Source of the DNA: a virus
DNA: 28,339 nt
Strand: one strand, 5' to 3'
Virus record (IMG/VR): IMGVR_UViG_3300047550_003787
Span: 1-28,339 of that record
Position numbers and translations under genes: made by a program. The notes beneath the pieces were generated by a model that did no database searches, was not told where the DNA came from, and saw only the letters and a list, made by a program, of their open reading frames with translations. Numbering within the stretch: the stretch's first letter is position 1; the number at the start of each line of letters is the position of its first letter. Positions 7,835 to 15,191 of this stretch are shown piece after piece.

Positions 7835-7921
7835 ACTCTCATGGGCAGGCGAGGTTCCAACCCTCTCATAAGTCCCTCCCCTCCTATGCCTCTCAACGAT
7901 GCACAAACCAGGAGGTCTCTT

Positions 7922-7995
7922 GTCTCAGTAGCTCAGTTGGATAGAGCATCTGCCTTCTAAGCAGTTGGTCGGGGGTTCAAGTCCCTCCTGAGACG
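7922..7995 (+). tRNA. tRNA-Arg(TCT)
   Basis: Acceptor GTCTCAG (7922-7928) pairs with CTGAGAC (7988-7994). D arm GCTCAGTTGGATAGAGC, anticodon loop CTTCTAA (anticodon TCT) and T loop TTCAAGT are all canonical. The outermost anticodon-stem pair is T-T. No encoded CCA. It reads AGA codons, which AT-rich phages use more than their hosts. Confidence 0.93.
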
Positions 7996-7997
7996 CT

Positions 7998-8076
7998 TGG
8001 AGTTATAAACTCCATATATAAAAGTGATAGAGGGTAAGTCACTGTTATATCCTTATGAGATATATCACACTTACTC
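7998..8076 (+). other. structured spacer between tRNA-Arg and tRNA-Asn
   Basis: Two inverted repeats: TGGAGTT-ATA-AACTCCA (7998-8014, 7 bp) and an 8-bp stem GGGTAAGT (8032-8039) with ACTTACTC (8069-8076) enclosing ATATC/GATAT (8047-8051, 8059-8063). Likely precursor processing structure; a small RNA cannot be excluded. No credible coding region here. Confidence 0.4.
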
Positions 8077-8156
8077 CATCATGGAAGTTAAGTCAAAGAA
8101 TCGAGACAAGCAGACAATGCCTTTTGAACTGGTGTAAGTCCAGTAACTTCTTACAT

Positions 8157-8229
8157 TCCCCTATAGCTCAATTGGCAGAGCACGGTGCTGTTAACACTGG
8201 GGTTGTTCGTTCGAGTCGGACTGGGGGAG
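8157..8229 (+). tRNA. tRNA-Asn(GTT)
   Basis: Acceptor TCCCCTA (8157-8163) pairs with TGGGGGA (8222-8228) with one T-G pair, discriminator G. Anticodon loop CTGTTAA (GTT), T loop TTCGAGT. No encoded CCA. Confidence 0.93.
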
Positions 8230-8295
8230 TTAGAAGGTCTGGAAATGTCTGGATCTTCTATAAGAGTCGGGATCATCATATCCGACTTGCTAAAA

Positions 8296-8333
8296 CCTAG
8301 AATATTTCTAGGTCAGGGGGATGGCCTCCCCTG
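8296..8333 (+). other. two adjacent hairpins before tRNA-Thr
   Basis: CCTAGAA-TAT-TTCTAGG (8296-8312, 7-bp perfect stem) and CAGGGG...CCCCTG (8314-8319 with 8328-8333). They end 4 bp before the tRNA and probably guide precursor cleavage; the second ends in TTT and could be a weak terminator. Confidence 0.5.
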
Positions 8334-8337
8334 TTTC

Positions 8338-8409
8338 GCCCTTGTAGCTCAGTGGTAGAGCAACGGTTTTGTAAACCGTTGGCCGTCCGTTCGAATCGGA
8401 TCGGGGGCT
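8338..8409 (+). tRNA. tRNA-Thr(TGT)
   Basis: Acceptor GCCCTTG (8338-8344) with CGGGGGC (8402-8408); anticodon loop TTTGTAA (TGT); T loop TTCGAAT; discriminator T. The last base is also the first base of a -35 box. Confidence 0.93.
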
Positions 8410-8437
8410 TGACATAATACTCATTATGTCTTATACT
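8409..8437 (+). promoter_or_regulatory. sigma70-type promoter TTGACA-17-TATACT with embedded inverted repeat
   Basis: -35 TTGACA at 8409-8414 overlaps the tRNA end; -10 TATACT at 8432-8437; spacer exactly 17 bp. The perfect repeat GACATAAT-ACTC-ATTATGTC (8411-8430) fills the spacer, so it could be a protein operator or, in upstream tRNA transcripts, a 3' hairpin. Confidence 0.7.
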
Positions 8438-8492
8438 TAAAAAGGTGATACTAACCAAACCCCTTCCGTGTGTGAGTATAGTTCATTTCTAG

Positions 8493-8500
8493 TATAAATA
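8493..8500 (+). promoter_or_regulatory. T4-type late promoter TATAAATA
   Basis: Exact late core 19 bp upstream of the HNH endonuclease ATG at 8520, with GGGAG as SD between them. The gene thus has both an early-type (8409) and a late promoter. Confidence 0.8.
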
Positions 8501-8519
8501 ATATTACGGGAGATGAACT

Positions 8520-9074
8520 ATGCTTAAACATAAACATCATATTATTCCAAAATATAAAGGTGGATCTGATCTACCAGAAAATTTAGTTGAAGTTAGTGTT
8601 ACACAACACGCTATGTTTCATTATTGTAATTGGAAATTATGGGGAAATGATCAAGATAAAATTGCTTGGATGGCATTATCTGGTATGATATCTTGTGAAG
8701 AAGCAGTCCATCAATCTTTGAAGTTAGGTGCAAAAATAAGAAACCAACTTCCTTGTAAAGAAGAAACAAAAGAAAAAATTTCCACAAATAATAAAAAAAT
8801 GTGGAAATCTCTAACAAATGAACAAAAACAAAGCAGATTAAGAGGTTTTTGGAAAGGAACTCCTTTAGAAATGAGGGAAGAAATTTCTAAAAAAATACAA
8901 AAAGCAAAAGGTTCTATTGTAATATGTAAAGATTATAATACTAACGAAGAAAAAGAATTTCCTAGTTTGCAGTCTGCGAGAAAGTATTATAAAATAGGGA
9001 TGAGCACCATAAGAGAATTAGTTTCGAATCCCCAAAAAATACATAAAGGAATTTCTGCTTATTATAAAAAATAA
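8520..9074 (+). CDS. HNH homing endonuclease, intact
   Basis: 184 residues. The N-terminus carries the HNH core: KHHIIPKYKGGSD, then PENLVEVSVTQHAMFHY, giving the His-His, Asn and His of the metal finger. A DKIAWMALSG helix follows, then basic linker repeats (NUMOD3-like) and a C-terminal NUMOD1/helix-turn-helix type DNA-binding end. It nicks or cuts intron-less or endonuclease-less relatives and promotes its own copying. Placed between tRNA-Thr and tRNA-Gly; its stop is 1 bp before the tRNA-Gly. SD GGGAG lies 9 bp before the ATG. Confidence 0.88.
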   Translation: MLKHKHHIIPKYKGGSDLPENLVEVSVTQHAMFHYCNWKLWGNDQDKIAWMALSGMISCEEAVHQSLKLGAKIRNQLPCKEETKEKISTNNKKMWKSLTNEQKQSRLRGFWKGTPLEMREEISKKIQKAKGSIVICKDYNTNEEKEFPSLQSARKYYKIGMSTIRELVSNPQKIHKGISAYYKK

Positions 9075-9075
9075 T

Positions 9076-9146
9076 GCGTGATTGATGTAGTGGTAACATG
9101 CCTCCCTTCCAAGGAGATCTCCTCGGTTCGAATCCGTGATCACGCT
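9076..9146 (+). tRNA. tRNA-Gly(TCC)
   Basis: Acceptor GCGTGAT (9076-9082) with ATCACGC (9139-9145); anticodon loop CTTCCAA (TCC) on a CTCC/GGAG stem; T loop TTCGAAT; discriminator T; no CCA. It starts 1 bp after the endonuclease stop. Confidence 0.93.
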
Positions 9147-9163
9147 TCTTAACCAAATCTTAG

Positions 9164-9192
9164 TTGACAAAAGACCCAAAGTACTCTAAGAT
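9164..9192 (+). promoter_or_regulatory. sigma70-type promoter TTGACA-17-TAAGAT for the porin
   Basis: -35 TTGACA 9164-9169, -10 TAAGAT 9187-9192, 17-bp spacer. The start would be about 9199, just before a perfect hairpin at 9202-9220. Confidence 0.7.
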
Positions 9193-9201
9193 ACTATCCA
9201 G

Positions 9202-9300
9202 TCTTAAGGTTTCCTTAAGATCTTCTAAATAGTGAGACTTGATTGATGCCTCAACTACTCGCATCAATCTTGTGAATCAATCACTGAGGTTCATAGACCT
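9202..9300 (+). promoter_or_regulatory. structured 5' leader of the porin mRNA
   Basis: TCTTAAGG-TTT-CCTTAAGA (9202-9220) would cap the 5' end. GATTGATGC (9241-9249) pairs perfectly with GCATCAATC (9261-9269), and a third copy-like AATCAATCA (9275-9283) could compete for the same arm. AGGT/ACCT follows near 9287-9300. There is no SD before the ATG at 9336. Control by RNA structure is plausible. Confidence 0.45.
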
Positions 9301-9335
9301 TAGTGTATACTGTCGTTTAGTACTAAAAACTTTTT

Positions 9336-10859
9336 ATGAAACTCAAACAACTGATGCTCGCACCTGTTGCTCTGGGAATGGTTGCTCCTGTTGCTGCGAA
9401 TGCCGCAGATCTTAATATGGCAGCAGTCAACCAATACTCCTCAGAACAGGTCACGAGTGTTACTCAATTCTCTGATGTTCAACCCAATGATTGGGCATAT
9501 CAGGCACTCAACAACCTTGTAGAGCGTTATGGTTGTGTTGCTGGTTATCCTAACGGCACTTTTGGTGGTGGTCGTTCAATGACCCGATATGAGGCAGCGG
9601 CACTACTGAATGCTTGTCTAGATCGCGTAACCGAAGTAACTGATGAACTCAAGCGTCTCCAAGCAGAATTTGCTCAAGAACTAGCAGTTATTCGTGGTCG
9701 TGTAGATAAACTAGAATCCCAAGTTGCTACTCTTGAAGCACAGCAGTTCTCTACTACCACCAAACTACGTGGTGAAGCAACCTTTGTTCTTGGTGGCGTA
9801 GATGACTATCGCACTAAAGCAGGTAAACTTACTACTGCTACAACTGGTGATGATGTCACCAAAACTGCCTTTAACTATGATGTTCGTCTGAACTTTGATA
9901 CTTCGTTTACTGGTAGCGATCTTCTTCGCACCCGTCTACGTTCTTCAAACTTCAGTGCTGATCCTTTCGGTTCTTCTTCTTCACTCTTCAAACTGGACAA
10001 AGCAGACAACTTCTCCAGTGCTAATGGTGATAATGTAGTCCTTGATCGTCTGTACTATCAGTTCCCTGCTTTCAACAACAAAGCAACTCTAACTGCTGGT
10101 GCTAAGGTTCGTAACACCGAAATGGCATGGATTCCTTCGGCATATAAGTCTGAGATTCTTGACTTCTTTGCTGTTGCTGGTGCTCCTGGTGTTTATAACA
10201 AAGCAACTGGTGCTGGTTTCGGTGCTCTCTGGAGTCAAGGTAAGACTGGTCTTGTTGCTGGTGTAAACTATGTGGCACAGAACGGTTCTGATTCTTCCAA
10301 GGGTGAGTTTGATGAAGCTGGTGCTCTGAATACTCTTGCGCAAGTTGGTTATCGTGGTACTAATTGGGGTGCTGCTTTTGGTTATCGTTATGGTACTGAA
10401 GGCACTCGTGTTCGCACCTATAATGGTCTGAATGGTGCTTCTGGTACTCTGCTTCCAAATCAAACCTCCAATGGTTATGCCTTTAATGCTTATTGGCAAC
10501 CTATGCAATCTGGTTGGGTTCCCTCAATCTCTGCTGCCTATGGTTGGAATACTGTAAGTGGTGTTCCTTCTGATAAAACCACAACTGATAATAGTCAGTC
10601 TTGGATGGCAGGTCTTCAGTGGTCTGATGTATTCCTGAAAGGCAACAGTGCTGGTGTTGCCGTCGGTCAAGCACCTACAGGTCAAAACCTGAATGGTAAG
10701 GATCTGGATCCTGCAACAATGCTTGAAATCTTCTACAAGTATCAAGTATCCGATCATATCAGCATCACTCCTGCTATCTTCTATGCTAGCAACAACCAAC
10801 GTCTGGTTGATAACTCCTCTAATTGGGGAGGAGTTGTATCCACAAAGTTCACTTTCTAA
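9336..10859 (+). CDS. cyanobacterial-type outer-membrane porin (SLH + OprB-like barrel)
   Basis: 507 residues. A signal peptide (1-23, Lys-led, hydrophobic, cleavage after AANA) is followed by an S-layer homology domain (about 43-95: FSDVQPNDWAYQALNNLVER, then YPNGTFGGGRSMTRYEAAALLN), a coiled coil (about 97-135, DELKRLQAEFAQELAVIRGR) and a beta-barrel of about 370 residues ending in Phe (STKFTF), the usual outer-membrane assembly signal. This is the architecture of cyanobacterial porins of the Som/iron-uptake type: SLH binds the wall, the barrel lets solutes through. It has its own promoter, leader and terminator, and parts are more GC-rich than the surroundings (31 of 60 bases in 9361-9420). 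Almost certainly host-derived; it may alter nutrient uptake or mask a receptor. Confidence 0.9.
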   Translation: MKLKQLMLAPVALGMVAPVAANAADLNMAAVNQYSSEQVTSVTQFSDVQPNDWAYQALNNLVERYGCVAGYPNGTFGGGRSMTRYEAAALLNACLDRVTEVTDELKRLQAEFAQELAVIRGRVDKLESQVATLEAQQFSTTTKLRGEATFVLGGVDDYRTKAGKLTTATTGDDVTKTAFNYDVRLNFDTSFTGSDLLRTRLRSSNFSADPFGSSSSLFKLDKADNFSSANGDNVVLDRLYYQFPAFNNKATLTAGAKVRNTEMAWIPSAYKSEILDFFAVAGAPGVYNKATGAGFGALWSQGKTGLVAGVNYVAQNGSDSSKGEFDEAGALNTLAQVGYRGTNWGAAFGYRYGTEGTRVRTYNGLNGASGTLLPNQTSNGYAFNAYWQPMQSGWVPSISAAYGWNTVSGVPSDKTTTDNSQSWMAGLQWSDVFLKGNSAGVAVGQAPTGQNLNGKDLDPATMLEIFYKYQVSDHISITPAIFYASNNQRLVDNSSNWGGVVSTKFTF

Positions 10860-10904
10860 GTGATAAATAAAAATACCTGGTTTGTGTGAGAACTTTTCAG
10901 GTGG

Positions 10905-10928
10905 GGAGGTCTTAAGACCTCCTTTTTT
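10905..10928 (+). terminator. intrinsic terminator of the porin gene
   Basis: A perfect 18-bp palindrome GGAGGTCTTAAGACCTCC (10905-10922) followed by six T. Confidence 0.92.
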
Positions 10929-10937
10929 ATGTTATAA

Positions 10938-10945
10938 TATAAATA
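10938..10945 (+). promoter_or_regulatory. T4-type late promoter TATAAATA
   Basis: Exact late core 28 bp before ATG 10974, placed directly after the porin terminator. Confidence 0.75.
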
Positions 10946-10973
10946 TTAGTATCTCACACAAACTAAGGTTCGT

Positions 10974-11490: not shown

Positions 11491-11542
11491 AATACTTCAT
11501 TTACACAGAGAATAATTGGAGTTCTAATTTCTTTTTGTTGAT

Positions 11543-11550
11543 TATAAATA
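11543..11550 (+). promoter_or_regulatory. T4-type late promoter TATAAATA
   Basis: Exact late core 20 bp before the Dps-like ATG at 11571. It implies expression at the time of virion assembly. Confidence 0.8.
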
Positions 11551-11570
11551 TTTCAAAAGTATTTGGTTAG

Positions 11571-12134
11571 ATGGAAGGTTTATACAAGTTACTGAGTGAT
11601 ATTCATTCAAATCTTTTTGTTTTATTTCATAAGACTTGGGTTTTTCATTGGAATGTTATAGGTTCTGATTTTCAGCAACTTCATACATTATTTGGCGAAC
11701 AATATGAGGCAATGTTTGGTGAGATTGACCGTCTTGCCGAACACATGAGATTTTTAAATATTCGTCCAGTTGGAACTCTTACTCGCATTGTAGAAGTTTC
11801 TACAGTTGGTCAAGGTTCAGATATTGTTCAAATTGATGAACTTGGACAAAGGCAAATTGTTCCAGGTAAACCAGTCGTCAAAGCAGAAGAAATGGTTAAA
11901 AGACTTCTTGCGGATAATTTAATCTTTTTGGAACTTTTAACAGAAGCGTCTGAAGCAGCAGGAGAGCAAAGATCATATGCAACAGAAAATCTTCTCCAAG
12001 ATTTAATGGAATCACATGGTAAGTTTGTATGGATGTTGAGATCAATAACTGAAAAATCTCAAAAAATGTCTATAGAGGATGTTGCAACTGAAGTACCTCC
12101 ACAAGAACAACCTGTACAACCTCAAATTCAATAA
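11571..12134 (+). CDS. Dps-like ferritin-family protein
   Basis: 187 residues. The N-terminal half matches Dps: FHWNV with His26, QQLH with His38, EIDRLAEHMR with Asp53 and Glu57. These match E. coli Dps His51, His63, Asp78 and Glu82 in spacing; the position of Asp67 is Gly42 here, so the inter-subunit ferroxidase site is altered. A roughly 30-residue segment after residue 77 (VGQGSDIVQIDELGQ...) differs from usual Dps helices, and a Pro/Gln-rich tail ends the protein. Dps binds iron and peroxide and protects or packs DNA. A late promoter and no operon partner suggest a virion or late role. Start ATG 11571 is the first codon after the late promoter. Confidence 0.8.
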   Translation: MEGLYKLLSDIHSNLFVLFHKTWVFHWNVIGSDFQQLHTLFGEQYEAMFGEIDRLAEHMRFLNIRPVGTLTRIVEVSTVGQGSDIVQIDELGQRQIVPGKPVVKAEEMVKRLLADNLIFLELLTEASEAAGEQRSYATENLLQDLMESHGKFVWMLRSITEKSQKMSIEDVATEVPPQEQPVQPQIQ

Positions 12135-12161
12135 TACTGATATTTAATTGATTGATTAGAA

Positions 12162-12419
12162 ATGGAAAATTTAAGAATCAGATGTCGTTCCTGTGGTAAG
12201 GAGATTGAAGGGCATCAAATTAAAACTGTAACTTGTGGTTGCCCTAATATGGCAACCATTCGTGGAGATAAGATTTCAGCAGTTGACTTATCGCAAATTG
12301 TTATGTTGAACTCTTATCATACAAAAACAAAGTCTGGCGTTCTTACTAATGAAGATATTGCCTGGCAGGAAGAGCGTAGAAAAAGAAAAGTTAGACGATT
12401 AGATTTTGAAGTCCGTTGA
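12162..12419 (+). CDS. 85-residue zinc-ribbon-like protein
   Basis: Cys pairs CRSC (residues 8-11) and CGC (25-27) form a likely zinc ribbon at the N-terminus. A variable middle is followed by a very basic helix (EERRKRKVRRLDFEVR) that suggests nucleic-acid binding. Follows the Dps gene by 27 bp and overlaps by 21 bp the 3' end of the convergent endonuclease. No specific function recognised. Confidence 0.7.
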   Translation: MENLRIRCRSCGKEIEGHQIKTVTCGCPNMATIRGDKISAVDLSQIVMLNSYHTKTKSGVLTNEDIAWQEERRKRKVRRLDFEVR

Positions 12420-13022
12420 GGACTTATTGGTTATTATATTTTTAATAATAGTTAAAACTTTTTTGAAGTTTTCTATTTTGTTATACTTCATCCAAGAAGT
12501 ATCAATAATACAAAGTTCTATATTTTTTTCCAGACACGCTTGAAATTTTCTTTCATCGTTATTTTGTATTTGCTTTAATTTTTCTTCACCATAAATTAGT
12601 TCGTAATGAAAAATACCATTCAATTCAAATGCTAAATTAATTTCTGGAATGTAAATATCTAACTCTGAATTAATAGTATCTTTTCTATTGAAGTGAAAGT
12701 CAAAATTATATTCTTGACTTAACTGTTCTTGTAAAAATACTTCGAGTTTTGATACTCTAGTTCCATTTGTTTTGTGGGTATTATTATAAGTCGCAGCACA
12801 ACTTCTAGAACAAAAATGGTTTTTTGTTTTCTTTTGTTCTGCCGGAACTTTATGAAAACTTTTATTGCAATTCTTACATTTTACAAAGTTTTTTTCTTTT
12901 TCTTTAATTTGATATTTCTTATGACATTTTTTAGAGCAAAAATGATTGCCTTTTCCCCTTTTAACTTCATATGGTAATTTTTGAAAAAGTGTGCTACAAT
13001 TTAGACAAGTTACATCAACCAT
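12399..13022 (-). CDS. EDxHD-type (Vsr-like) homing endonuclease with two zinc fingers
   Basis: 207 residues. Two similar treble-clef zinc fingers (CLNC...HFCSKKC and CKNC...HFCSRSC) form the N-terminal DNA-binding part. The C-terminal nuclease domain has SKLEVFLQE, then ELDIYIPEINLAFELNGIFHYE, then a basic ERKFQAC and CIIDTSW. The Glu-Asp-Glu-x-His order fits the EDxHD/very-short-patch-repair-like fold used by some phage homing endonucleases. It lies on the minus strand beside tRNA-Ser and under a minus-strand late promoter. AT-rich codons set it apart from the neighbours. Likely a mobile gene. Confidence 0.78.
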   Translation of the reverse strand: MVDVTCLNCSTLFQKLPYEVKRGKGNHFCSKKCHKKYQIKEKEKNFVKCKNCNKSFHKVPAEQKKTKNHFCSRSCAATYNNTHKTNGTRVSKLEVFLQEQLSQEYNFDFHFNRKDTINSELDIYIPEINLAFELNGIFHYELIYGEEKLKQIQNNDERKFQACLEKNIELCIIDTSWMKYNKIENFKKVLTIIKNIITNKSSTDFKI

Positions 13023-15061: not shown

Positions 15062-15191
15062 GTGGTGGAGCCAATCCCCAATATGCCCGTGATGGAGACA
15101 CGTTAACAATCCTGGTGCGGATGGGATAACTCCCGCCCAGTTTCTTGCTTCTGGTCAAAGAGCAAGTGGCGAGCCTGCATAAACTGAGTAG
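15062..15191 (+). other. region with a possible decayed coding remnant
   Basis: No complete gene. Two frames look protein-like in succession: first a Gly/Asn-rich stretch (GGGANPQYARDGDTLTI, from 15061), then in another frame PGADGITPAQFLASGQRASG up to TAA at about 15183. Together they resemble the end of a tail-fibre-like protein broken by a frameshift. A stem CTTGCT/AGCAAG lies near 15147-15170. A structured RNA is the alternative. Confidence 0.3.

Follow-up and report, generated by a model that had tools for sequence, protein, structure and literature searches.

A candidate phosphate-acquisition porin of the outer membrane in T4-like cyanophages

Introduction

The known phosphate genes of cyanophages, pstS and phoA, act in the periplasm. 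Host PhoB has been reported to control pstS of the marine phage P-SSM2 and binds promoters of phage S-PM2d (PMC10976474); the published cyanophage Pho consensus is CTTA-N7-CTTA (PMC3037559). It has been argued that phosphate clearance by picocyanobacteria is limited by diffusion through the porins of the outer membrane, and higher porin levels were observed in Prochlorococcus and Synechococcus under phosphate limitation (PMC7250820). Cyanobacterial SLH/OprB porins (Som/SomB type) consist of a signal peptide, an SLH domain, a coiled coil and a barrel ending in phenylalanine, and a similar combination of SLH domain, coil and porin barrel forms the outer-membrane tether OmpM1 of Veillonella parvula (8bym), a distant bacterial protein.

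The presence of a porin in phages is already known from the annotation of Synechococcus phage S-SRM01 (QPX48248.1, MW015081), although the word "porin" is absent from the main text of the S-SRM01 paper (PMC8557907), and no paper discussing a cyanophage porin was found in the open-access literature. Phages S-PM2 and S-CREM1 encode short proteins, annotated as "putative S-layer protein" and "iron uptake porin", respectively, that also have an SLH domain, a coiled coil and a terminal phenylalanine; however, they are only 279-292 aa long, and their homology to the porin described here is limited to the SLH domain and the coil. Judging from the open-access papers searched, the phosphate linkage, Pho-type promoter, leader hairpin and exchange of the 5' unit reported below are new.

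Viral Context

The DNA analyzed here (the window, 28,339 bases) is a fragment of a T4-like cyanophage genome of freshwater or estuarine origin, close to that of S-SRM01, with about 80% DNA identity across 62% of the first 24 kb. It encodes a tail lysozyme, an endolysin and several tRNAs. The tRNA-Gly(TCC) gene (9076-9146, plus strand, predicted by ARAGORN) lies directly before the porin gene. S-SRM01 and many relatives have this order too, and in S-PM2 a tRNA-Gly gene directly precedes the gene for the short SLH protein.

Two downstream settings of phage porins were found. In the first, to which the window belongs, the porin is followed by a Dps/ferritin-like gene (11571-12134, plus strand) and nucleotide-sugar genes; the Dps-like gene also shares the porin neighbourhood in S-SRM01 and about 17 related loci, which is an association only. 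In the second, the neighbours are hli, ferredoxin, a peroxiredoxin-like gene, a C39 peptidase and lysozyme.

Several other elements were observed in these regions. A wcaG cis-regulatory RNA (15086-15180; Rfam, 72 bits) is located 5' of glycosyltransferase and GDP-mannose dehydratase genes of the window, and an abiF small RNA (7880-7916; Rfam, 49 bits), present also in the related contig L003, lies immediately 5' of tRNA-Arg. A possible phage-borne tmRNA with the unusual tag VGNHEAGICRMVQRAATPA was predicted by ARAGORN within a 20-tRNA array adjoining the porin of another contig (L042:8427-8898); it has no Rfam match and is doubtful. In L021, L071, L240 and L241, genes for small secreted proteins (about 100-150 aa, with signal peptides) are found right after the porin or between it and pstS.

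The Porin Gene and Its Product

The porin gene (9336-10859, plus strand) is an intact ORF running from ATG to TAA and encoding 507 aa. A signal peptide at about residues 1-24 (MKLKQLMLAPVALGMVAPVAANAA) and the C-terminal phenylalanine were recognized by inspection. An SLH domain occupies residues 45-88 (Pfam, 36 bits, cut-off 20.8), followed by a coiled coil at about 103-135 and a predicted 16-stranded barrel at about 140-507, the OprB match covering residues 104-507 (Pfam, 62 bits, cut-off 22.9). The NCBIfam model NF033921, "iron uptake porin", scores 297 bits against a cut-off of 100. By these curated cut-offs the product can be assigned to the cyanobacterial SLH/OprB porin family (NF033921, PF04966 plus PF00395), and ORF, Pfam and NCBIfam evidence bear out a sequence-only reading of this DNA, in which a complete porin of this type with signal peptide and terminal phenylalanine had been proposed.

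Although its confidence is low (pLDDT 55), the AlphaFold model contains 16 strands and a long helix besides the SLH helices, and its Foldseek matches include OmpF, OprP, OprB and the SLH porin OmpM1. The latter is also the best PDB sequence match, although the match covers the SLH domain and the coil only. Barrel net charge, considered as a sign of anion selectivity, did not separate the porin groups.

Relatives and Origin

In IMG/VR, 250 stretches encode relatives of the porin, most of them metagenome contigs. Among phages with genome records, a full-length relative was found only in S-SRM01 (71% identity). The predominance of metagenome contigs could be taken to mean that the porin is a misassembled or stray host gene with no role in the phage. 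We regard this as practically negligible: S-SRM01 is an isolate whose complete genome has the porin at the same place, at least seven further porin-bearing virus records encode the T4-type capsid protein gp23, and the phage porins are under purifying selection (median dN/dS 0.18 in 91 pairs). As S-SRM01 is an isolate and the seven other records encode gp23, the porin belongs to phages.

The nearest host porins sampled are about 60-63% identical, the best match among 300 Cyanobium/Synechococcus-family genomes reaching 63%, and no closer host porin came up when 84,980 species genomes were scanned with a motif. The phage porins form one clade (support 99-100) within a part of the tree set apart from other porins at 98/99 support. 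By these comparisons, the window porin is not a recent host copy, and the phage copies constitute an old, phage-only clade. Thus, the "host-type" label given to the gene earlier holds for the porin type, which is cyanobacterial, but not for a close host gene.

Within this part of the tree, phage porins, host porins linked to pstS and host porins linked to the futA-type iron-binding gene (as in L166/L165) form a three-way split whose order is not separated by the tree (AU p 0.50 and 0.33); grouping the phage porins with the futA-linked clade was not rejected (AU p 0.504). The tree thus does not decide between phosphate and iron ancestry. The data are consistent with ancient descent of the phage porin from the Cyanobium/Synechococcus-type host porins that have a phosphate or iron linkage, followed by lineage-specific maintenance under selection.

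Linkage with pstS

In 23 of the 67 phage loci with room for a downstream gene, the porin is directly followed by pstS on the same strand. This is also the arrangement of the pstS-upstream porins of Cyanobium and Synechococcus. Among the host porins examined, 16 of the 31 that share a part of the tree with the phage clade are directly followed by pstS, versus none of the other 51 (Fisher p 7e-9, kinship among the porins being ignored). The porin-linked phage PstS proteins form one clade (SH-aLRT 99), apart from the sampled PstS of marine cyanophages. The phage porin resembles the PhoB-controlled pstS of marine cyanophages such as P-SSM2 as a putative phosphate-acquisition gene with a host-type Pho promoter, but it would supply a component of the outer membrane, while PstS acts in the periplasm, and the PstS linked to it belongs to a separate clade.

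The linkage is not universal. No pstS follows the porin in the window, and in the complete genome of S-SRM01 pstS is absent altogether, including beside the porin. Where both genes are present in phages, the gap between them contains a terminator followed by CTTAACCAAATCTTAGTGGACTTTAAGGTT, a sequence in agreement with the cyanobacterial Pho box (PMC1906773) and with CTTA-N7-CTTA (PMC3037559); in L243/L244 a Pho box is followed by a pstS-like start.

Two candidates considered in this connection were rejected. A 1.1-kb gene between porin and hli, taken for psbA, proved to be pstS, and Prochlorococcus PMM0709, considered as a pstS-adjacent porin, is listed among kinases in the source. In L018, the slot between porin and hli that is held by pstS in other phages is occupied by a 430-aa ORF resembling adenosylhomocysteinase by eye (11500-12792).

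The main rival to a role in phosphate acquisition, to which we assign a low but appreciable probability, is that the porin takes up iron complexes, jointly with the iron-storage protein encoded by the neighbouring Dps-like gene. NF033921 is named for iron uptake, the FutA-linked host porins are as close to the phage porins as the pstS-linked ones, sequence favouring neither, and the Dps-like gene is found downstream in the window, in S-SRM01 and in about 17 loci. However, we read NF033921 as a broad model to which cyanobacterial SLH porins conform in general; no iron transporter gene, fut included, was found beside the phage porins examined, while pstS is there in a third; and the promoter of the window porin matches pstS promoters. 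Of the nutrients that the sequence-only reading had envisaged, an uptake role in general being plausible, phosphate is thus the best supported, and iron is the one named by the NCBIfam model.

Promoter and Pho Boxes

A sigma-70-like promoter, TTGACA-17-TAAGAT (9164-9192, plus strand; TTGACA at 9164, TAAGAT at 9192; 10 of 12 matches), precedes the porin gene. Promoter-like matches taken alone are not above chance in the porin region (5 found, 3.9 expected). The -35 element overlaps the second box of a candidate Pho-box pair, CTTAACCA-aat-CTTAGTTG (9148-9166, plus strand), the sequence at 9148-9169 being CTTAACCAAATCTTAGTTGACA. The pair is nearly identical to the phage pstS promoter and matches the published CTTA-N7-CTTA consensus, which is weak evidence taken alone, with 1.2 matches expected per window; for the exact Pho-pair pattern, 0.01 are expected at two mismatches. 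A position weight matrix trained on 16 phage pstS promoter sites, the window site being left out, scored 30.8 bits at 9148; no other site of the window exceeded 12.4 bits. No overall signal was obtained when the leaders were scanned generically for PyTTAAPyPyW units in tandem sets of three, and the pstS-trained profile was used instead.

On these sequence grounds the Pho-box pair would place the porin among the PhoB-regulated phosphate genes of cyanophages. As Pho-box predictions in phage genomes are unreliable and often fail (PMC10976474), PhoB action at the window promoter is inferred. Of 59 distinct phage porin leaders, only 6 have a Pho site; in the five other than the window it scores 18-31 bits, shuffled sequences reaching at most 12.6. 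The S-SRM01 porin, which shares with the window porin the preceding tRNA-Gly, the downstream Dps-like gene and a conserved leader hairpin, differs in that no Pho site was found in its leader. Nor was a phage-type Pho site found in the 500 nt scanned upstream of pstS-adjacent host porins. In a host porin group without pstS (L195, L200, L202, L205 and L212), strong tandem Pho-box-like repeats occur on the minus strand about 140 nt upstream.

Most phage porin leaders have plain sigma-70-like and late-like promoters and no Pho sites. The element CTAAATAG (9225-9232, plus strand) in the window leader resembles, by inspection, the late-promoter core recurring in other phage porin leaders. The prevalence of such promoters would suit a general permeability function, in which the phage substitutes for the general porin of the host as host mRNAs decay and, over a long infection, maintains bulk flow of solutes with no substrate preference. 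The adjacency of the porin to hli and ferredoxin genes fits the same idea, as does a mosaic porin on a single contig (L240:5959-7479, minus strand), in which a phage leader, signal peptide and SLH domain are joined to a barrel closer to other, non-pstS-linked host porins; this mosaic suggests that the barrel type may be exchangeable. Nevertheless, a general function leaves unexplained both the pstS linkage in phages and hosts and the pstS-type promoter of the window, and we consider it unlikely, to about the same degree as iron uptake or slightly more so.

Leader RNA and Terminator

The leader (9193-9355) has a predicted folding energy of -40.3 kcal/mol (z -4.0), more stable than all 200 of 200 shuffles. 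It contains three hairpins on the plus strand. The first is the inverted repeat TCTTAAGG-TTT-CCTTAAGA (9202-9220), which is also a second CTTA-N7-CTTA match. The second (9241-9269) is conserved and has a 9-bp stem and an 11-nt loop, CUCAACUACUC. The third (CACTGAGGT...ACCTTAGTG, 9281-9306) is part of the leader fold.

The loop CUCAACUACUC is common to 15 distinct phage leaders, in which 8 of the 9 stem pairs are changed on both sides. None of 500 shuffles attained the covariation score, which collapses on sliding one partner; since the alignment is anchored on the loop and its rows are related, the shuffle count is not a probability. An independent scan of all IMG/VR with one 19-base version of the hairpin revealed 20 stretches, of which 19 have a porin ORF starting just downstream and the remaining one adjoins a porin C-terminus at the end of a contig. 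With a covariance model, no copy was detected in the host loci searched, and a host-side origin of the hairpin was rejected on this basis. The hairpin is thus a further feature, besides divergence, that sets the phage copies apart from host SLH/OprB porins. Protection of the mRNA and control of its translation are guesses as to its role.

The porin transcript is predicted to end at an intrinsic terminator (10903-10928, plus strand; stem 10903-10924, then a T run). With promoter and terminator found where they had been placed, and with a significantly folded hairpin leader between promoter and gene, the earlier description of a self-contained gene holds. An inverted repeat, GTTTGTGTGAGA / TCTCACACAAAC (10880-10963), flanks this terminator and a late-type TATAAATA, which precedes an ORF of 119 aa; the start of this ORF looks like the remnant of a homing endonuclease. 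In L036 the layout is the same, but the arm sequences differ and a GIY-YIG-like start follows. The repeat may form a hairpin masking the start site.

Exchange of the 5' Unit

The contig L003 is nearly identical to the window, with at least 98% identity on both sides of 7957-9445 and 99.9% from 9446 on, while the segment 7957-9445 itself, which includes tRNAs, promoter and leader as well as the signal peptide, has either diverged or been replaced. The L003 unit retains the conserved hairpin loop and lacks the Pho site. Its alternative porin N-terminus is shared by L020 and L080, which argues against a simple assembly error. L003 also has a group I intron (1850-2044, equivalent to 7956/7957 of the window; Rfam, 65.7 bits) in tRNA-Arg(TCT), at the anticodon; the window phage lacks this intron.

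Porins are common phage receptors, and exchange of the 5' part of the porin within one phage species could reflect superinfection exclusion or a receptor decoy, in which a host porin serving as receptor is replaced or masked by that of the phage, as had also been suggested from the sequence. Yet the part swapped in L003 is leader and signal peptide, leaving the surface unaltered, and among phage porins the long segments between barrel strands are conserved (0.87-0.94) much like the strands (0.90), with no hypervariable loops. Receptor masking thus found no support, and we deem it very unlikely.

A broader scheme can be put forward tentatively, as one possibility. T4-like cyanophages would have a two-part phosphate-scavenging module, porin plus PstS, with the porin run by interchangeable 5' units carrying either a PhoB switch or a plain or late promoter. 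Many of these units would share a phage-invented hairpin regulating the porin alone, and phosphate control would be gained or lost by a swap at the SLH boundary.

Implications for Phosphate Acquisition

The best explanation of these observations is that the porin works like a phosphate-acquisition auxiliary gene. From the sequence comparisons we consider it moderately probable that it is an outer-membrane phosphate-acquisition porin, kept by selection and, in the window phage, inducible by host PhoB. During infection, the porin would be exported to the host outer membrane and tethered to peptidoglycan via its SLH and coiled-coil region, and there it would raise the permeability to phosphate, to the benefit of the phage, as an outer-membrane counterpart of the PstS encoded next door in relatives. 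Binding of host PhoB to the CTTAACCA/CTTAGTTG pair over the -35 element would induce the porin under phosphate starvation of the host, and the leader hairpins may protect the porin mRNA or control its translation. The idea is directly testable, as the hairpin is porin-specific and the window and L003 are natural haplotypes of one phage species, of which only the window has the Pho promoter.

If this is true, the phage widens the outer gate of its host for phosphate, besides supplying the inner binder known from marine cyanophages, and a phage porin tied to pstS and to a Pho promoter would mean that phages remodel the host envelope for nutrient supply.
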